Shown: piece after piece, positions 1 through 36,014 of the stretch
How the letters are laid out: every line of letters begins with the position of its first letter
Position numbering within the stretch: the first letter of the stretch is position 1
Source of the DNA: Saccharopolyspora gloriosae
GTDB taxonomy: Bacteria > Actinomycetota > Actinomycetes > Mycobacteriales > Pseudonocardiaceae
NCBI RefSeq assembly: GCF_022828475.1
Contig: NZ_CP059557.1
Location: forward strand, 2,170,001-2,234,000
DNA: 64,000 nucleotides
Reading direction: 5' to 3'
The notes under the pieces: model-generated
The model's input: the letters and a program-made list of their open reading frames with translations, nothing else
What the model was told of the DNA's origin: nothing
The model's database searches: none
Translations under genes and position numbers: made by a program

Positions 1-622
1 TCAGCTCGGCACGGGTCTTGGCGGCGTCGGTGTGCAGCACGCAGTGCAGGCCGAGGCGTTCGGCGGCCTCGATGTTCGGGGCGCCGTCGTCGACGAACAC
101 GGCCTCCGGCGGGCGCAGGCCGAGCCGTTCGAGGGTGAGCTCGTAGATCCGCGGGTCCGGTTTGCGCAGGCCCACCTCGCTGGAGATGACGGCCAGCTCG
201 AACATTCCGTCCAAGGTGTCCCACGGGTAGTTGTTGCCCCAGCTGTTCGACAGCAGCGCCGTGCGCAGGCCCGCGTCGCGCAGGTCCGCGACCAGCCGGT
301 GCATCGCCTCGTCGGGCCGCATGTAGGAGAACATCCGCGCCATCAGGCCGTCCGGGTCGACGGGCTCGTCGTCCTCGGTGCGCAGCCGCGCCGCGAGCAA
401 CCGGTCGAACTCGGCGCCGGAGATCTCGCCGGTCTCCAGCCGGTGGATCGGCGTGCCCGCCGGGGCGCTGCGGGACAGCCATTCCTTGAGCGCCGCCGAG
501 AACATCTCCGGCTTGATCCGTTCGGCGCGGGTCCACGCGTTGATCGCGACCCGGCCCTGCGTGGTCAGCACCCCGCCGTAGTCGAAGATCACCGCTTTGA
601 TCGAAGGGCCGCTGGACACCAT
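1..622 (-). CDS. HAD-family hydrolase (3' end cut by window edge)
   Basis: Haloacid dehalogenase-like phosphatase of the IA/epoxide-hydrolase-N type, expected to act on a small phosphorylated or halogenated cytosolic substrate. Read on the minus strand it begins MVSSGPSIKAVIFDYGGVLT, with the nucleophile Asp in the FDYGG motif I. Motif II is LSNSWG, motif III is RKPDPRIYE, and the Mg-binding motif IV is VFVDDGAPNIEAA. About 207 residues are visible and the frame runs off the left edge, so only a short C-terminal tail is missing. The ATG at 622 sits next to the motif I strand, which fits family starts. It is preceded by a repeat element (copy A), not by a gene in operon distance. Substrate cannot be told. 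Confidence 0.85.
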   Translation of the reverse strand, partial: MVSSGPSIKAVIFDYGGVLTTQGRVAINAWTRAERIKPEMFSAALKEWLSRSAPAGTPIHRLETGEISGAEFDRLLAARLRTEDDEPVDPDGLMARMFSYMRPDEAMHRLVADLRDAGLRTALLSNSWGNNYPWDTLDGMFELAVISSEVGLRKPDPRIYELTLERLGLRPPEAVFVDDGAPNIEAAERLGLHCVLHTDAAKTRAEL

Positions 623-702
623 GCCCCGGACCGTACCGACTAGCCGGTATGTCCGCTAGACCCCTGGAGCTGGGGTTCGGGGTCTTGTTGCTTGGGGGGT
701 CG

Positions 703-930
703 GGTGGCGGAACCTCAGTTGGTCTCTCGCTGCGGGATCTTTTTCCCTAGTGGCTCCGCCACGAGGGAAAAAGCTGTCCTCGCGAGAGACCAACTGAGAA
801 CCCGCCGGTGGTCGGCTTCTTGACGTGGGCTATGCGCTTCGCGCATACAGGCACGGCTGCGCCGCAAGGCACGGCTTGCTTCGCAGCCCTTCGCAGCTCT
901 TCGCGGGCTTTGTCGCTGTTCGCTGGGTTC
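703..930 (-). repeat. Nested-hairpin repeat element, copy A
   Basis: One of five related elements. Core 706-806: outer arms at 714-730 and 782-798 form a perfect 17-bp stem (minus-strand arm CTCAGTTGGTCTCTCGC). A nested inner stem at 740-772 pairs TTTTTCCCT with AGGGAAAAA and continues into a GTGGC/GCCAC stretch. Terminal GGCGG/CCGCC boxes flank a symmetrical GTT/GTT internal loop. Beyond 806 the extended module carries a small perfect hairpin, TATGCGC-TTC-GCGCATA (831-847), and GC-rich gaag-type repeats to about 930. It lies between the HAD gene and the LLM oxidoreductase, both on the minus strand. Short reading frames inside it are not genes. Nothing is seen in the 80 bp between 623 and 702. 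Confidence 0.85.
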
Positions 931-19534: not shown

Positions 19535-19745
19535 AAGGGCAAGCGAAGCGAAGCCTGCCCAGCGGCCGAAGGCCGTGCCTCGCGGCGAAGCCGTGCCTGT
19601 ATGTGCGAAGCGCATAGCCCACGTGCAAAAGCCCTCACCGGCGGGTTCTCAGCCGTCTTCTCGCGAGGACAGCTTTTTCCCTCGTGGCGGAGCCACTTGG
19701 GAAAAAGATCCCGCAGCGAGAAGACAGCTGAGGTTCCGCTACCCG
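19535..19745 (+). repeat. Nested-hairpin repeat element, copy B
   Basis: Core 19640-19740. The outer arm is CTCAGCCGTCTTCTCGC against GCGAGAAGACAGCTGAG, a 17-bp stem with one C/A mismatch. Its middle differs from copies A and C on both arms together. The inner stem GCTTTTTCCC... is kept. The 5' module holds TATGTGC-GAA-GCGCATA (19600-19616) and gaag-type repeats. It lies between the permease start and the aldehyde dehydrogenase stop, both on the minus strand. Confidence 0.85.
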
Positions 19746-23548: not shown

Positions 23549-24931
23549 ATGCGGATTCGAGGTTGGCTGGCGGTTCTTGCGGCGGGCTGCATGCTGCTCG
23601 CGGGCGTGCCGGTCGCGGGCGCGCAGACCCCGCCGGACGAGGTGCGTTCCAGGCTGGACGCGGTCCCGGGGTTGACGGTGCTCGGTGAGCGCCCGACGGA
23701 GCCGGGCTTCCGGCTGTTCGATCTCACCTACGCTCAGCCCACCGATCACCGCGATCCGGGGGCGGGCGGGTTCCAGCAGCACCTCACGCTGCTGCACCGG
23801 AACTTCGATCGGCCCACGGTCGCCTACACCACCGGCTACAACCTGCCTTCGGTGGCCACCCGCACCGAGCCGACGCGGCTGCTCGACGGCAACCAGGTCG
23901 CCCTGGAACACCGTTTCTTCACCCCGTCGCGCCCCGACCAGCCGGACTGGACGGACCTGAACATCTGGCAGGCCGCCACCGACCAGCACCGCGTCATCGA
24001 GGCGCTGCGCGCGGTCTACGCCGACCGCTGGGTCACCACCGGTGCCAGCAAGGGCGGTATGACGGCCGTCTACCACCGCCGCTTCTACCCCCGCGACGTC
24101 GACGCGACCATCGCCTACGTCGCGCCGAACGACGTCGTCAACGAGCGGGACCGCTACGACGAATTCCTCAACACCGTCGGCGACGAGTCCTGCCGTGCGG
24201 CGCTGACCGCCGTGCAGCGGGACGCGCTGACCCGGCGCACCGAGCTGCGGGACCGGTACGCGGCCTACGCCGCCGCGGAAGGACTCACCTTCGACCGCAT
24301 CATCGGCGACGTGGACCGGGCGCTGGAGGCCGTGGTCGTGGACGCGCCGTTCGCGTTCTGGCAGTATCGCGGGCCGCAGGACTGCGCGAAGATCCCGGCA
24401 CCCGGCGCGAGCCTCGACGAGCTGTGGACGTTCTTCGAGGAGACCTCGCAGTTCGATTCGTACACGGATCAGGGGCTCGACTCGTACGTGCCGTACTACT
24501 ACCAGGCGGGCACGCAGCTGGGCTGGCCCGACGTGTCCGATGAGCCGTTGGCCGACCTGTTGCACCACCGCAAGATCGGGGAACCGCGCAACTTGGTGCC
24601 GCACGAGATCGACATGAGCTTCCGGCCGGGCGCGATGGCCGACGTGGCCGCGTGGATCGCTTCGCAGGGCTCGGAGCTGATGTTCGTCAACGGCGCCGCC
24701 GACCCGTGGAGCGCGGAACCGTTCCGTCTCGGTCCGGGCACCCGCGACTCCTACGACTACCTGGTGCCCGGCGGCAACCACGGTTCGAAGATCGAGGACC
24801 TCCCCGCGCCCGAACGAGCCGAAGCCGAGGCCACCGTGCGCCGCTGGGCAGGAGTCGACCAGACCCCCGCTCAGCTCCACGCCACGCTGGACCGCGACGA
24901 CCTCACCCGCACGCCACCCCGCCTGCCCTGA
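23549..24931 (+). CDS. Secreted S28-type serine peptidase (tripeptidyl-aminopeptidase-like)
   Basis: 460 residues. Signal peptide MRIRGWLAVLAAGCMLLAGVPVAGAQ, with cleavage expected after AGA. The actinobacterial PS-10/S28 family carries an alpha/beta-hydrolase domain with a helical lid. Nucleophile in WVTTGASKGGMTAVYHRRFYP (GxSxGG), acid in FVNGAADPWSAEPF, His in VPGGNHGSKIEDLP. Segments NLPSVATRTEPTRLLDGNQVALEHRFF and QAATDQHRVIEALR are family hallmarks. Removes N-terminal tripeptides outside the cell. Convergent with the acyltransferase gene, with repeat copy C between. Confidence 0.88.
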   Translation: MRIRGWLAVLAAGCMLLAGVPVAGAQTPPDEVRSRLDAVPGLTVLGERPTEPGFRLFDLTYAQPTDHRDPGAGGFQQHLTLLHRNFDRPTVAYTTGYNLPSVATRTEPTRLLDGNQVALEHRFFTPSRPDQPDWTDLNIWQAATDQHRVIEALRAVYADRWVTTGASKGGMTAVYHRRFYPRDVDATIAYVAPNDVVNERDRYDEFLNTVGDESCRAALTAVQRDALTRRTELRDRYAAYAAAEGLTFDRIIGDVDRALEAVVVDAPFAFWQYRGPQDCAKIPAPGASLDELWTFFEETSQFDSYTDQGLDSYVPYYYQAGTQLGWPDVSDEPLADLLHHRKIGEPRNLVPHEIDMSFRPGAMADVAAWIASQGSELMFVNGAADPWSAEPFRLGPGTRDSYDYLVPGGNHGSKIEDLPAPERAEAEATVRRWAGVDQTPAQLHATLDRDDLTRTPPRLP

Positions 24932-24984
24932 GCACCATCACCAGACCATGTGCGGTTCCGCGCAGATCAAGTCCGGCCCACCAG

Positions 24985-25229
24985 CGGCCGAGCCGCGAAG
25001 GTCCGCGAAGCAAGCCCACCCAGCGGCCGAAGGCAGCCCTTGCGGCGTAGCCGAATCCTTGCGGCCGAAGGCCGTGCCTGTATGTGCGAAGCGCATAGCC
25101 CACGTCAAGAAGCCGACCACCGGCGGGTTCTCAGTTGGTCTCTCGCGAGGACGGCTTTTTCCCTCGTGGCGGAGCCACTAGGGAAAAAGATCCCGCAGCG
25201 AGAGACCAACTGAGGTTCCGCCACCCGCC
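24985..25229 (+). repeat. Nested-hairpin repeat element, copy C
   Basis: Best-preserved copy. Core 25122-25222: outer arm CTCAGTTGGTCTCTCGC pairs perfectly with GCGAGAGACCAACTGAG. The inner stem GCTTTTTCCCTCGTGGC pairs with GCCACTAGGGAAAAA (one mismatch). Conserved internal-loop strands are GAGGACGGC and GATCCCGCAGC. Terminal GGCGG/CCGCC flank a GTT/GTT loop. The 5' module has TATGTGC-GAA-GCGCATA (25081-25097) and gaag/cggccgaag repeats back to about 24985. Nearly identical to the reverse complement of copy A. Fills the 318-bp gap between two convergent genes; nothing else is seen there. Confidence 0.88.
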
Positions 25230-25249
25230 CCCCAAGGACGAACGAGCCC

Positions 25250-26362
25250 TCAAGCAGCCCGACGTGCAGCGAAGCGGTCGTAGGTGGTCATGAGGAATCG
25301 GTGCGCAGGGCGTTCCACGAGCTTGGTGAGCGCCCAGCCGAGCAGCACGCCGTTGACCAGGAACGCCACGGTCTGCAACGTCGGTCCCACGCCGAGGTCC
25401 TGCAGCAGGCGGGAGACCACGTAGCCGAGGGTCTGGTGCATCAGGAACACGCCGTAGGAGATGCCCGCGAACCACTGGATCGGGCGCCGCGCCCACTGGG
25501 GGATGACCCGGTTCCAGTCCGGCCCGCGCGCGGTCAGCGCGACCACGAGCATGCCGACGCAGACCGCGACGGTCGAGCCCCAGTCGGCGACCAGGCCTTC
25601 CGGTGTCTCGGCGTAGTTGTGCAGCGCTTGGCCGAGCATGCAGGCCGCCAGCAGCAGGGCGAAGTGCGGCGTCTTGATGCGCTTGGTCGACCACAGCCAG
25701 ATCGCCACGCCCACCACGAACAGGTGCCAGCGGTGCATTCCGATGCCGTCGACCACGGTCCGGTACCACTCCGGCGGCTGGGTCACGCGCAGCGGCCATT
25801 GCGCGGCCGGGATCAGCACGGCGGTCCACAGCACCAGCAGGATGCGGCGGCCGTGCCCGTAGCGGCTCGCGTACAGCATCGCCGCGGCGCTGAATCCCAT
25901 CAGCTGCAGCGGCACCGTCCAGTGCGAGCCGTCGATGTAGAAGTACTCGGACGGCCGCCAGTTCCACAGCATGAGCAGGTTCGCGGCCAGGTCGGTTCCG
26001 GTCGGGTCGAACCAGCCCTCGATCGGCAGCAGGCTGATGCCCAGGTAGATCACCAGGACCGCGGCGAGGAACGGCGGTAGCAGTCGCGCGATCCGCCCCC
26101 ACCAGTACCGCAGCAGGGTGCCGCGGCCGATCGTCACGCACGCGAAGTACGCGGAGATCACCAGCAGCAGGCTCGCGCCGACCTGGTAGGGGAAGACGAT
26201 GTTGCGCGGGATCAGCTCGGGGTGCAGGTAGACGCTCAGGAACGTCGCGTGGTACAGCATCACGAGTCCCACGCAGCCGGCCCGTACGACGTCCCAGCTG
26301 ATCTTCCGATTGCTCCGCGTGCCCGAGTGAGCTCGTGCGGGCGCAGTGGTTCCTTCAGGCAC
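25250..26362 (-). CDS. Acyltransferase-3 (OafA/YrhL-like) membrane protein
   Basis: 370 residues with about ten membrane spans. N-terminal helix KISWDVVRAGCVGLVMLYHATFLSVYL carries the catalytic-type His (R-x10-H arrangement). GRIARLLPPFLAAVLVIYLG and the F/H-x-W region HWTVPLQLMGFSAAAMLYASRYGHGRR follow, and FAGISYGVFLMHQTLGYVVSRLL near the C-terminus is diagnostic of acyltransferase family 3. Transfers acetyl or similar groups to cell-surface glycans, lipids or antibiotics. Single gene with its own AT-richer upstream region. Acceptor not known. Confidence 0.85.
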   Translation of the reverse strand: MPEGTTAPARAHSGTRSNRKISWDVVRAGCVGLVMLYHATFLSVYLHPELIPRNIVFPYQVGASLLLVISAYFACVTIGRGTLLRYWWGRIARLLPPFLAAVLVIYLGISLLPIEGWFDPTGTDLAANLLMLWNWRPSEYFYIDGSHWTVPLQLMGFSAAAMLYASRYGHGRRILLVLWTAVLIPAAQWPLRVTQPPEWYRTVVDGIGMHRWHLFVVGVAIWLWSTKRIKTPHFALLLAACMLGQALHNYAETPEGLVADWGSTVAVCVGMLVVALTARGPDWNRVIPQWARRPIQWFAGISYGVFLMHQTLGYVVSRLLQDLGVGPTLQTVAFLVNGVLLGWALTKLVERPAHRFLMTTYDRFAARRAA

Positions 26363-27242: not shown

Positions 27243-27355
27243 GGTGGCGGAACCTCAGGTGCTTCCTCGTTGCGGGATCTTTTTCCCGAGTGCTCCGCCA
27301 CGAGGGAGAAGCCGTCCTCGCGAGGAAGCACCTGAGAACCCGCCGGTGGTCGGCT
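27243..27355 (-). repeat. Nested-hairpin repeat element, copy D (short form)
   Basis: Core 27246-27344. The minus-strand outer arm CTCAGGTGCTTCCTCG pairs with CGAGGAAGCACCTGAG (16 bp, perfect); its middle differs from the other copies on both arms. The inner stem is weakened (TTTTTCCCGAG against CGAGGGAGAA). It has the GGCGG/CCGCC ends and the GATCCCGCA and GAGGAC internal-loop strands but lacks the 5' hairpin module of A-C. Between sodA and the convergent AraC-family gene. Confidence 0.85.
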
Positions 27356-32858: not shown

Positions 32859-34426
32859 GCGGGCACCTCCGTGTTCATCGGCAGCCGTGCGGTGAACACG
32901 GCGCCGCGTTCGTTGCGCACCTGCACGGAACCGCCCCGCCGGTGGCAGATCTGCCTGGTCAACGCCAAGCCCAGGCCGCGTTCCCCGTCCCTGGCCGCTT
33001 TGGTGCTGAACCCGTGCCGGAACACCTCCTCCACGATCTCCGGCGCCACGCCCGGGCCTGAGTCGCGCACCACCAGCGTCACCACGTCGCCCGCGTGCCG
33101 GATGTCCACTTCGATCAGGTTGGACGCGGCCGCCCCTTCGACCGCGTCCAAGGCGTTGTCCACCAGGTTCCCCAGCACCGTGGTCACGTCGGCCGACGAC
33201 TGCTCGTCGACCTCGCCGAGCGCGCTGCCGTCGCTGAGCCGCAGGCCCACGCCGCGTTCGGCCGCCAGGCTCGCCTTCGCGACCAGCAGTGCCGCCGTCG
33301 CCGGGTCGGCGATGCGCGCCGCGACCTCCGACTGCCACTGCCCGCGAGTGTGGCTGACCCGGTCGACGAACCGCGCCAGCTCGTCGAATTCGCCGAGTTC
33401 GATGAGACCGGAGATGGTGTGCAGCCGGTTGCTGAACTCGTGCGCCTGCGCCCGCAGCGTGTCCGTGGTGGCACGGTGCGCGGCCAATTCCTGTTGCAGG
33501 TCAACGAGTTCGGTGCGGTCCCGCATGGTGACGACCGCGCCGACCGTGGAGATCGGCATCCGGTTCAGCACCACCACGCGTCCTCGGCGCAGCACGATCT
33601 GGTCTACGCCGCCGGTGCGGCCGGTGAGCACGTCCCGAGCCCGATCGTTGAGGTCCAGCTCGTCGATGTCCCGGCCCACGCAGTCCGCGGGCAGCGAGAG
33701 CAGCTCCCGCGCCTGATCGTTGACCAGGGTGATGCGGTTCTGCTGGTCCACGCCGAGCACGCCCTCGCGGATGCCGTGCAGCATCGCCTCCCGGTGCTCC
33801 ACCAGGCGCGTGATCTCCTGCGGTTCCAGCCCGAGCGTCTGGTGCTTGACCCGCCGCGCCAGCAGGACCGACCCGGCCACGGCGAGGAACGTCGCGAACG
33901 ACAGCAGCATCAGCGGATTTCCGGGTGCTCGCCGGACCCCGGCGAAGAAGTCCGGCGTCTCCCGCCCGGCCGCGGCGACGCCGACGATGCGCGCCCCCGC
34001 ACCGATCACCGGCACGTGCGCCACCAGCGACTCCTTGCCATCGGCGCCGCGCACCTGGCCCACCCAGGCCCGGCCGTCGAGCACGGTGCTCGCACCGAGC
34101 GGCAGCAGCTGCCCGCGCTGACCGGGATCGGGCGAGGTCAACACCACGCCACGCGCATCGGTGATGATCACCTCGTCGGCGCCGGAGAGGCTGCGGGCGC
34201 TCTCGGCGAAGATCGGCAACCCGTCCCGGTCGAACGGGTCCTGCAGGTTCGACCGCACCCCTTCGGTCGCGGCGAGATCCTCGGCGACCGACAGCATCCG
34301 CCTGCCCTCGGTGGCTTGGAACGAGGAGTTGGACTGCGACACGGAGAACACCGCGATCGACGCCAGCAACACCAAGATGATCGCCAGCTGCCAACCGAGC
34401 AACTGCCGGGAAAGCGGTCCCCGCAT
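32855..34426 (-). CDS. CitA/DcuS-family sensor histidine kinase
   Basis: 523 residues. TM1 at about 10-30, periplasmic sCache-type domain (EGVRSNLQDPFDRDGLPIFAESARSLSGADEVIITDARGVVLTSPDPGQRG), TM2 at about 172-192, PAS domain at about 215-300, then the kinase core with QAHEFSNRLHTISGLIELG (His329 expected phospho-acceptor) and ATPase boxes NLVDNALDA, DSGPGV and GLGLALTRQ. The start at 34426 is chosen because GGGAGGTG lies just upstream; a longer frame begins at 34447. Senses extracellular carboxylates in the family. Paired with the regulator at 32166 and the tricarboxylate transporter across the divergent gap. Confidence 0.9.
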   Translation of the reverse strand: MRGPLSRQLLGWQLAIILVLLASIAVFSVSQSNSSFQATEGRRMLSVAEDLAATEGVRSNLQDPFDRDGLPIFAESARSLSGADEVIITDARGVVLTSPDPGQRGQLLPLGASTVLDGRAWVGQVRGADGKESLVAHVPVIGAGARIVGVAAAGRETPDFFAGVRRAPGNPLMLLSFATFLAVAGSVLLARRVKHQTLGLEPQEITRLVEHREAMLHGIREGVLGVDQQNRITLVNDQARELLSLPADCVGRDIDELDLNDRARDVLTGRTGGVDQIVLRRGRVVVLNRMPISTVGAVVTMRDRTELVDLQQELAAHRATTDTLRAQAHEFSNRLHTISGLIELGEFDELARFVDRVSHTRGQWQSEVAARIADPATAALLVAKASLAAERGVGLRLSDGSALGEVDEQSSADVTTVLGNLVDNALDAVEGAAASNLIEVDIRHAGDVVTLVVRDSGPGVAPEIVEEVFRHGFSTKAARDGERGLGLALTRQICHRRGGSVQVRNERGAVFTARLPMNTEVPA

Positions 34427-34576
34427 GCCCCACCTCCCTCGCCGCATCGCGTGTGCCCCGCCTGACGCTAACCCCCTGACCAGCACAACCGTAAGCAGTC
34501 CCCACAGGACAAGTCACGAAGCGGGCCAGGAATCAGAAACTCCACGCAGAAGGATCTTCTGCCCGTTGCCCCAGGG

Positions 34577-34725
34577 CGATCTCCGCGACGTGCGCAGCGC
34601 GCATCTTCGGGACGTGCGCAGGACGAGCTTCGGGACGTGTGCGCAGCGCGCATCTCCGCGACGCGCGCAGGACGGCCTTTGCGCCGTGCGCAGGTGAATC
34701 TTTGGGACGTACGAGACGATCTTTT
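34577..34725. repeat. Tandem array of about six 21-25-bp imperfect repeats
   Basis: Units start at 34577, 34600, 34624, 34649, 34673 and 34696, with a partial one at 34717. Consensus is roughly CGCATCTTCGGGACGTGCGCAG followed by GA or CG. Units adjoin with no spacers, so it is not a CRISPR. It lies in the gap between the kinase gene and tctC. Confidence 0.8.
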
Positions 34726-34735
34726 GATCAAGTGT

Positions 34736-34762
34736 CCGGTCAGCGGCGAAGCAGCTGACCGG
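34736..34762. promoter_or_regulatory. 9-bp hairpin in the kinase-tctC gap
   Basis: CCGGTCAGC (34736-34744) pairs perfectly with GCTGACCGG (34754-34762) around a 9-nt loop, immediately after the tandem array and before repeat copy E. It could be a terminator for transcription entering the array or a regulator site. Confidence 0.45.
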
Positions 34763-34771
34763 CGACCGGCC

Positions 34772-34888
34772 TGAGCAGGCCGACCACCGGCGGGTTCTCA
34801 GCGGCTTCCTCGCGAGGACAGCGATTTCGCTGTGTGCGGCATACATGAGAAATCGATCCCGCAGCGGCGAAGCCGCTGAGTTCCCCAC
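34772..34888 (+). repeat. Nested-hairpin repeat element, copy E (divergent short form)
   Basis: Core 34789-34887. Outer arm CTCAGCGGCTTC (34797-34808) pairs with GAAGCCGCTGAG (34869-34880). The inner stem is changed to CGATTTC (34822-34828) against GAAATCG (34849-34855). The conserved internal-loop strands GAGGACAGC and GATCCCGCAGC remain. Left GGCGG end present, right end decayed (TTCCCC). The 5' hairpin module is absent. Confidence 0.8.
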
Positions 34889-34899
34889 TACGCAGGCAG

Positions 34900-34920
34900 C
34901 ACTGGAGACCGGCTCCAGTG
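34900..34920. promoter_or_regulatory. Dyad CACTGGAG-5 nt-CTCCAGTG upstream of tctC
   Basis: Perfect 8-bp inverted repeat with a 5-nt centre, 108 bp before the tctC start. Candidate operator of the CitB-type response regulator or an RNA leader hairpin. Confidence 0.5.
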
Positions 34921-35027
34921 ACACAACGAACAAAAGCATCGTTACGTTCGCAAGGAGGACAACAAGAACTCCGTTGTGCAGCATGACTCGGGTCACGTTC
35001 CCACCACAACGGAGAGGCGGGATCCCC

Positions 35028-36014
35028 GTGCGCCTACGCAGCGCGCTGTCCGTGGTCGCGTCCCTGCTGCTCGTGCTGCTGGTGCCGCCACTGGTGAGCA
35101 CCGGCTCCGGCGGCGAGACCGACCAGCAGATCCGCGGCCTGCGGATGCTGGTGCCGAACTCGCCCGGCGGCGGCTACGACATCACCGCCCGCACCGCCGT
35201 GAAGGCGATGGAGGACGCGAAGCTCAACGGCAACGTCGAGGTGTTCAACCTGCCCGGCGCGGGCGGCACCGTCGGGCTCGGCCGGGTCGTCAACGAACGC
35301 GGCAACGGCAAACTCGCCATGTCCATGGGACTCGGTGTCGTCGGCAGCGTCTACACCAACCACTCGCCGGTGACCTTGCAGGACACCACGCCCGTCGCGA
35401 AGCTCGTCGAAGAGCCCAACGTGGTCGTCGTCGCGAAGGACTCCCCGTACCGGAACTTCGGTCAGCTCGTCGAGGACTGGAAGCGCGACCCCGGCCAGAC
35501 CCCGGTCGGCGGCGGCTCCTCGCCCGGCGGGCCGGACCACTTGGCGCCGATGCTGATGGCCAAGGCCATCGGGCTCAGCCCCAAGCAGGTCAACTACGTG
35601 CCGTTCGACGGCGGCGGGGAGCTGCTGGCCTCCGTGCTCGGCGGCAAGGTCGACTTCGGCGTCTCCGGCATCGGCGAGTACCGCGACCAGATCGAAGCAG
35701 GGGAACTGCGGGTCCTCGCCGTCACCGGGCCGGAACGACTGCCCAACGTGGACGCCCCGACGCTCACCGAGGCCGGATTGGACGTGAACTTCACCAACTG
35801 GCGCGGCATCGTCGCCCCACCCGGCATGTCCGACGCGGACCGGACCAAGCTCGTCGACCTGTTCACCCGCCTCAACGCCTCCCCGGAGTGGCAGGAGGCG
35901 ATGCGGCGCAACGGCTGGACCCCGGCGTTCCAGCCCGGCCCGGAATTCGGTGAGTTCCTGCAACAGGAGAGCGACCGGGTCGTCTCGGTGCTCGAGGAGT
36001 TGGGATTGGCATGA
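35028..36014 (+). CDS. tctC: Tripartite tricarboxylate transporter substrate-binding protein TctC
   Basis: 328 residues from the GTG at 35028, with GGAGAGG 10 nt upstream; an in-frame ATG at 34983 is less likely. Signal sequence RLRSALSVVASLLLVLLVPPLVSTGSG exports it. TctC/Bug-family features: LRMLVPNSPGGGYDITARTAVKAMEDAKLNGNVEVFNLPGAGGTVGL, VVVVAKDSPYRNFGQLVEDWK, GGPDHLAPMLMAKAIGL, VNYVPFDGGGELLASVLGGKVDFGVSG. Captures citrate-like carboxylates for TctAB. Its stop overlaps the tctB start (ATGA). Probably induced by the divergent CitA/CitB-type system. Confidence 0.92.
   Translation: MRLRSALSVVASLLLVLLVPPLVSTGSGGETDQQIRGLRMLVPNSPGGGYDITARTAVKAMEDAKLNGNVEVFNLPGAGGTVGLGRVVNERGNGKLAMSMGLGVVGSVYTNHSPVTLQDTTPVAKLVEEPNVVVVAKDSPYRNFGQLVEDWKRDPGQTPVGGGSSPGGPDHLAPMLMAKAIGLSPKQVNYVPFDGGGELLASVLGGKVDFGVSGIGEYRDQIEAGELRVLAVTGPERLPNVDAPTLTEAGLDVNFTNWRGIVAPPGMSDADRTKLVDLFTRLNASPEWQEAMRRNGWTPAFQPGPEFGEFLQQESDRVVSVLEELGLA

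Follow-up and report, generated by a model that had tools for sequence, protein, structure and literature searches.

A dispersed hairpin element with a covarying stem and a conserved internal loop, preferentially placed behind stop codons in Saccharopolyspora and its relatives

Five copies of a nested hairpin

What kind of element is the hairpin lying at positions 24985 to 25229 of the window, the 64,000 nt stretch of the Saccharopolyspora gloriosae genome analysed here, and why do its copies differ in the sequence of their stems while keeping them paired? A sequence-only reading had listed five related elements in this window, A to E, and had taken their covarying stems as a sign of selection on structure. 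Reading of the sequence together with a search for the two loop strands (GAGGACRGC..GATCCCGCARC) recovered all five at the places given; the pattern matches every one of them, has exactly five matches in the window and none at all in 100 shuffles.

The main hairpin is about 100 nt long. In copy C it spans 25122..25222 on the plus strand and is built from a GGCGG/CCGCC foot, a GTT/GTT mismatch, a 17-bp outer stem, a 6x6 internal loop with GAGGAC as its 5′ strand (25147..25152, plus) and CCCGCA as its 3′ strand (25192..25197, plus), and an inner stem. The main hairpins of copies B (19640..19740) and E (34789..34887, with an imperfect 3′ foot) are likewise on the plus strand, those of copies A (706..806) and D (27246..27344) on the minus strand. 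The ranges originally given for A, B and C do contain these hairpins and also take in small palindromes lying upstream, which in copy C occupy 24985..25110 on the plus strand (GCCGAAGGC, TGTGCGAAGCGCATA and similar). Terminal GGCGG/CCGCC boxes had been ascribed to all five copies; copy E has no CCGCC, its 3′ foot being GAGTTCCCC, and copy B has CCGCT. The opposite arm had been said to match in every copy, and here again copy E departs, with one C-C and one T-G pair in its outer stem. The 9 and 11 nt described as loop strands may be better seen as a 6x6 loop, GAGGAC/CCCGCA, followed by three adjoining positions which can partly pair (R-T, G-A and C-G); in a variant copy in L051, GCC stands opposite GGC at these three positions.

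Seen over many copies, the 5′ half of the element runs from small palindromes through a C-rich linker to the foot (GCGG), GTT, a 17-nt arm mostly starting with CTCAG, and GAGGAC; the 3′ half continues from the inner stem through CCCGCA, a 17-nt arm mostly ending with CTGAG, GTT and CCGC into a C-rich tail. The spacing is near-constant, the GGTTC boxes standing exactly 15 and 14 nt from the loop strands in 109 of 136 copies. Folded as RNA, copy C reaches −73 kcal/mol compared with −35.8 in shuffles (z −10.1). According to the flank consensus, a similar short box accompanies the hairpin on both sides in direct orientation, GGTGGTCGG in the genus of the window and GCGGTGCGG in Saccharopolyspora in the narrow sense. 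Left and right box types agree in 112 of the 124 copies that crude text rules classed on both sides, out of 209 examined, and common ancestry within genera contributes to this agreement. A second hairpin upstream of the main one is suggested by eye; we do not claim it as proven because the mean fold z-scores of this region are only −0.2 to −0.9 relative to mononucleotide shuffles. Small palindromes with GNA loops (GGCGAAGCC, GGCCGAAGGCC and similar) form runs upstream of elements at 810-900, 19535-19610 and 24985-25110 of the window, and they vary in number between copies as if expanding independently.

Covariation of the stems and constancy of the loop

The case for a selected fold comes from comparing many copies. 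We drew 74 at random from the 104 that have distinct standard stems, excluded 14 by hand (several with short inner stems) and aligned the 60 diverse copies left (alignment A1). The 32-pair structure is 92.3% paired in A1 and 23 of its 32 base pairs have changed on both sides. Double changes fill 326 cells of the alignment versus 93 ± 10 after shuffling, a level attained in 0 of 500 shuffles, and 46-88 in controls in which the structure was slid; the covariation score is 0.461 versus 0.138 for the control. Uncompensated stem changes were specifically looked for, and non-standard pairs make up 61 of 1768 outer-stem cells (3.5%), as counted over 104 of 127 distinct arm pairs. The proposal of selection on structure is thus supported, with covariation far above both kinds of control and a loop that is kept across genera.

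The constancy of the loop has to be read with the way in which the copies were collected, since those in A1 were all found by the loop pattern and their loops are invariant by construction. Among the 20 copies fetched as matches of a covariance model (R1), 19 retain GAGGAC and 19 retain CCC(G/A)(C/G)A by eye; this model itself favours GAGGAC/CCCGCA, having been trained on copies that possess them. A search that did not require the exact loops gave 191 matches, one of them false, and 167 have both exact loops. The loci were thus fetched either by loop pattern or by a loop-trained model, both of which lean towards those loops. Across genera the unpaired 6x6 loop is maintained and stays non-complementary.

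Outer stems differ between genomes at a shared site. In ten out of ten same-site, same-orientation comparisons between genomes (which left out the pair L076/L227 and the pairs in opposite orientation) the outer stem differs, the ends of the anchor genes in these comparisons being about 82-96% identical; at site B, for instance, three genomes carry CCGTCTT, TTGGCCT and TGAGCCT. At the same time a given genome carries a small set of stems repeatedly at its different sites, as seen in the 108 copies of standard arm length out of 135 distinct ones, and we therefore infer that blocks have been replaced between copies. The stem differences in all ten same-site comparisons are what block replacement would give. 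Since stem variants recur within a genome, apparently moved as blocks, the five window copies alone do not prove compensation in place, although selection on structure, for which they had been put forward, is upheld by the wider comparison.

Copies with arms from two stem families also exist. Template switching inside hairpins is a known process, and it could in principle copy one arm onto the other while gene conversion spreads the result, so that the stems would match with no selection on structure at all. The block-like replacement of same-site stems and the copies of mixed arms would both agree with this. Such a process would, however, tend to make the 6x6 loop complementary, and the loop stays non-complementary across genera. 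It also accounts poorly for a site at which the element appears to be alone in its genome. In four genomes of genus g34 the element lies directly after a gene which, from its sequence, we take to be gatB, with one match in each genome (three found by the covariance model and the fourth by the pattern). The element averages 89.4% identity between these genomes, equal to the end of gatB, and the DNA beyond it averages only 38.8%. Pairing is complete in three of the four copies, which differ from one another by double changes at up to six stem positions; the remaining copy contains three mismatches. Here pairing has been kept by double changes at one orthologous site with no second copy detected, and copy-to-copy conversion has no known donor, which argues for selection on the fold itself. 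The template-switching explanation is thereby largely contradicted and we consider it very improbable. The element is clearly kept at the gatB site, and the results taken together suggest that the folded shape is needed by the cell or by the element.

Placement behind stop codons and the favoured strand

The relation of the element to neighbouring genes was determined for the 202 distinct copies whose flanks comprise 700 bases or more, 201 of which have a called gene on both sides; genes were called with a simple codon-usage caller trained on the genome of the window. A gene runs towards the 3′ side of the element in 169 of the 202 copies, there is no converging gene on that side in 33, and convergent gene pairs surround the element in 98. 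A distance of 45-75 nt between the loop core and a converging stop codon on the 3′ side, a range that was picked after the distances had been seen, was measured in 130 of the 201 copies; when position and orientation were randomised within each copy's own intergenic gap, 16.4 ± 3.8 copies were expected and the largest of 1000 simulations gave 30. The same distance on the other side of the element occurs in three copies, and 71 of the 201 fall outside the range. From stop codon to loop core the median is 61 nt (quartiles 57-67 nt), the foot of the hairpin being about 23 nt nearer. Anchor genes are diverse, with 22 clusters of two or three among the 169, and a converging gene on the 3′ side accompanies 16 of the 20 copies that the covariance model found in other genomes.

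The window copies illustrate this arrangement. The stop codon of an acyltransferase gene (PF01757; 25250..26272, minus) is 51 nt from the loop core of copy C, on the 3′ side of the element. Copy B follows an aldehyde dehydrogenase gene (PF00171; 19774..21264, minus) at 57 nt and copy D an Fe/Mn superoxide dismutase gene (PF02777/PF00081; 26584..27213, plus) at 56 nt. The anchor gene of copy A (32..643, plus) encodes a protein of 203 residues that matches no Pfam family at E 1e-5, and it stops 86 nt from the loop core, and copy E lies in a divergent gap without an anchoring stop codon. This relation to stop codons is new here: the element prefers one orientation and a position shortly behind a stop codon.

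In lying closely behind a stop codon, and often between two convergent genes, the hairpin resembles an intrinsic or bidirectional terminator. Unlike terminators, however, the element has no T-run in the window copies, the sequence of its internal loop is conserved across genera, and there are up to 304 copies per genome. A terminator scan of copy C found no GC hairpin directly followed by a T-run at the hairpin ends and gave two minus-strand matches inside the hairpin; in the five window copies no T-run follows the main hairpin on either strand. These observations bear on the possibility that the element is a sense 3′ untranslated structure in the mRNA of the anchor gene, which would end transcription or protect the message with no special role for the antisense strand. 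The preferred distance behind the stop codon would fit such a function, and in folding energy the sense strand of copy C comes close to the other (−71.1 versus −73 kcal/mol). The missing T-run counts against it, as do a conservation of the loop exceeding what such a role needs and a raw excess of G-T over A-C pairs on the opposite strand, and we think this explanation quite unlikely.

When the cores were folded as RNA, the strand antisense to the anchor gene was the more stable one in 165 of 191 and the other strand in 24, with a mean difference of 4.4 kcal/mol. On this antisense strand the raw counts are 80 G-T versus 29 A-C. After counting each genus group, position and type once, the numbers become 33 versus 22 (p 0.18), and for this reason the asymmetry is only a lean. 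The antisense strand is thus favoured, not established, and the folded form may be RNA or single-stranded DNA.

If RNA is the active form, the hairpin of the antisense strand and its C-rich flanks could act in cis to stop or trap antisense transcription before it enters the gene, the element having spread long ago and been kept for this purpose. Its position and orientation relative to the stop codon, the frequency of convergent pairs (98/202), the better RNA fold of the antisense strand and the strong constraint at the gatB site would all agree with such a role. In S. erythraea, for which a strand-specific RNA data set is described (GSE39722), antisense transcription is reportedly enriched at the 3′ ends of genes (PMC3610266). 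On the other hand, the gene after gatB runs the same way as gatB in the cases read, so no neighbouring gene transcribes the antisense strand there, which speaks against a simple version of an RNA limiting antisense transcription. A scan with the sigma-70 consensus revealed no promoter around copy C, the strand asymmetry is not significant after de-duplication, and a conserved internal loop is unneeded for a terminator. We regard this explanation, the main rival of the reading preferred below, as possible, if somewhat doubtful.

The direction of replication was compared as well. In G018, 60 of 74 copies are co-oriented with replication as opposed to 199 of 365 sampled genes (p 1.6e-6, with the contig start taken as the origin), a bias which would suit entry through single-stranded DNA. 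The genome of the window (G000) has no comparable bias among the places listed (100/190), the first half holding 51 on the minus and 37 on the plus strand and the second half 9 on the plus and 3 on the minus strand.

Distribution, comparison with known systems and a possible origin

In the genome of the window (6.88 Mb, one contig) the loop pattern has 192 matches with a gap of 20-50 (99 and 93 on the two strands) and 190 with a gap of 25-50 (97 and 93); the reversed pattern used as a control has 0. For the remaining five genomes of the genus the numbers of matches are 13, 13, 105, 106 and 304, and in Saccharopolyspora relatives there are from one to about three hundred copies per genome. A covariance-model survey, scoring at most 12 candidates per genome, matched 20 of 298 genomes of the order, all in the element's own family and belonging to 8 of 77 genera; this sample covered other families too, as that of the family itself comprised 46 genera. 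The exact loop pattern matches 47 of 297 genomes of the family, where some of the single matches within coding genes may be due to chance, and at least 120 stretches were fetched. Hosts among the matches listed include Saccharopolyspora, Actinopolyspora, Halopolyspora, Saccharomonospora, Prauserella and one 3,158-base Amycolatopsis contig. NCBI places Saccharopolyspora in the Pseudonocardiaceae and Actinopolyspora in a family of its own; family f1 of our survey contains both. A match in Streptomyces sp. GC420 (L149) is attributed to chance, being inside a called gene and having no covariance-model match. Of 57 copies, 46 could be classed and two of these lie inside a called gene. In genus g39 two elements 186 bases apart (L093, 11394 and 11580) stand in tandem behind a single gene, both pointing the same way.

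Relatives have versions of sites A, B, C and E that lack the element, such as site B in G004 and G002 and site C in G002, and copies have therefore been gained or lost. A copy number ranging from 13 to 304 within one genus, together with these element-free sites, indicates gain or loss, and spreading. No clear target duplication was visible by eye at sites A, B, C and E, where the flanks are too diverged. At site C (24931-25250) the same convergent gap contains, in G003 and G005, an element on the opposite strand with the other gene as its anchor, the result either of two independent insertions or of a swap. At site E (34426-35028) the main hairpin is absent from G005, where the upstream palindrome and a tail-like stretch remain, and this looks like a loss of the hairpin.

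Carriage by phages or plasmids was considered and rejected: copy C gave no blastn match to phage and plasmid records, and none of the pattern matches in viral contigs (12 and 8 in two scans) stood up to the covariance model, the best scoring 17.2 bits (E 0.48). Nor did we find an autonomous unit made of two elements enclosing a gene. At the four loci read (G160, G185, G173 and G207) the paired copies stand 1.3-1.8 kb apart and flank apparently ordinary host genes, as judged from the translations by eye.

Does the element belong to a known class? The sequence-only reading had named membership of a known Rfam or REP family as evidence against its proposal, and neither a family in Rfam, nor a REP tag, nor a REP transposase in the own genome came to light. 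No Rfam family exceeds its gathering cut-off in the whole window with its five copies, the best match below threshold for copy C being a microRNA model (23.4 of 268 bits). Among the papers listed in our literature searches none described such an element, in Saccharopolyspora or more broadly. MITEs, ERIC and BOX elements are short, non-coding, dispersed sequences of inverted-repeat structure, and the element resembles them in all four respects. In contrast to these, a target duplication or parent transposon was not seen for it (at the four paired loci and sites A, B, C and E), and it has a conserved unpaired loop, a covarying stem and a preferred distance from the stop codon. Integron attC sites fold as single strands with unpaired conserved bases and carry the core GTTRRRY/RYYYAAC at their ends. 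The element would likewise be a folded single-strand site with unpaired conserved bases, but by inspection its ends are without this core, GTT being followed by C and not by a purine on both sides in A1, and it is mostly dispersed singly.

The element also resembles the REP/REPIN/BIME elements mobilised by TnpAREP (RAYT), which are likewise high-copy intergenic palindromes mostly downstream of genes (PMC8266576, PMC3733652). REPs are described as palindromes of 20-50 nt with strand-specific hairpins and needed mismatches (PMC8266576); those of E. coli have a conserved mismatch within the stem and are recognised on one folded strand (PMC8266576, PMC3733652), and REPs lie downstream of genes, between unidirectional and convergent ones (PMC3733652). 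The main text of the 2013 REP survey (PMC3733652) contains no mention of Saccharopolyspora, Actinobacteria or Actinomyce-. An origin from a known mobile class, be it RAYT/REP with its Y1 transposase or one of the retroelements, for instance a group IIC intron or a retron, would be compatible with these descriptions. However, with about 100 nt the element is far longer than a REP, has a preferred orientation to the neighbouring stop codon and was seen in one family only among the genomes sampled. A GTAG or CGTC tag is absent next to the hairpin, both in the flank consensus and in A1. Y1 transposases (PF01797) number 0 in G000, G003, G004, G005 and G018, though 8 of 23 element-bearing genomes have one; an origin by RAYT/REP is thus not supported, since searches of G018 and of the copy-rich genomes in the genus of the window did not reveal the enzyme. 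Group IIC introns favour terminators, and reverse transcriptases (PF00078, RVT_1) occur in 131 of 297 genomes of the family. They number 0 in G000, G001-G004 and G018; G005, with one match, is alone among the copy-rich members of the genus, and an origin by reverse transcription is not supported either. An origin from one of these known classes seems to us scarcely credible.

The reading we prefer, at slightly below even odds (a probability of about 0.48), is that of a REP-like, non-autonomous repeat which is placed at the 3′ ends of genes and recognised in its folded, single-stranded form. Its observed parts are the covarying 17-bp stem, the non-complementary 6x6 loop, the mismatched GGTTC/GGTTC foot, the direct boxes, the placement behind stop codons and the spread. 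A dedicated protein would recognise the folded strand by its loop, foot and boxes, and through this protein copies would have reached the 3′ ends of genes. Gene conversion would overwrite copies with one another and so move whole stems between sites, and copies would persist because a folded element at a 3′ end is useful or harmless in its place. Several points weigh against this REP-like reading. Neither the mobilising enzyme nor a protein partner was found, the empty sites display no clean target duplication by eye, some copies are without a converging gene (copy E of the window), 71 of 201 lie outside the 45-75 nt range and the listed part of G000 has no replication bias comparable to that of G018. 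Furthermore, a purely selfish repeat would not need once-per-genome elements to be kept in place over several species.

A more novel reading is a gene-boundary element of a new class, which we propose tentatively and hold to be rather unlikely as things stand. Its folded strand, with a 6x6 recognition loop and direct-repeat boxes at its flanks, would be bound by a putative dedicated protein and placed closely behind stop codons in a preferred orientation; it would have been amplified to hundreds of copies in some genomes and be a kept host element at gatB and other genes. The outer stem of such an element would be under pressure for rapid change while staying paired.

The Saccharopolyspora group makes erythromycin and spinosyns. 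Dispersed bacterial palindromes are often explained by REP transposases. The strict architecture, the covariation and the relation to stop codons, along with the failure to find a REP transposase or reverse transcriptase in G003 and G000, the two most copy-rich hosts, therefore point to an unknown recognising protein, and the element family as a whole points to an unknown way of reaching the 3′ ends of genes.
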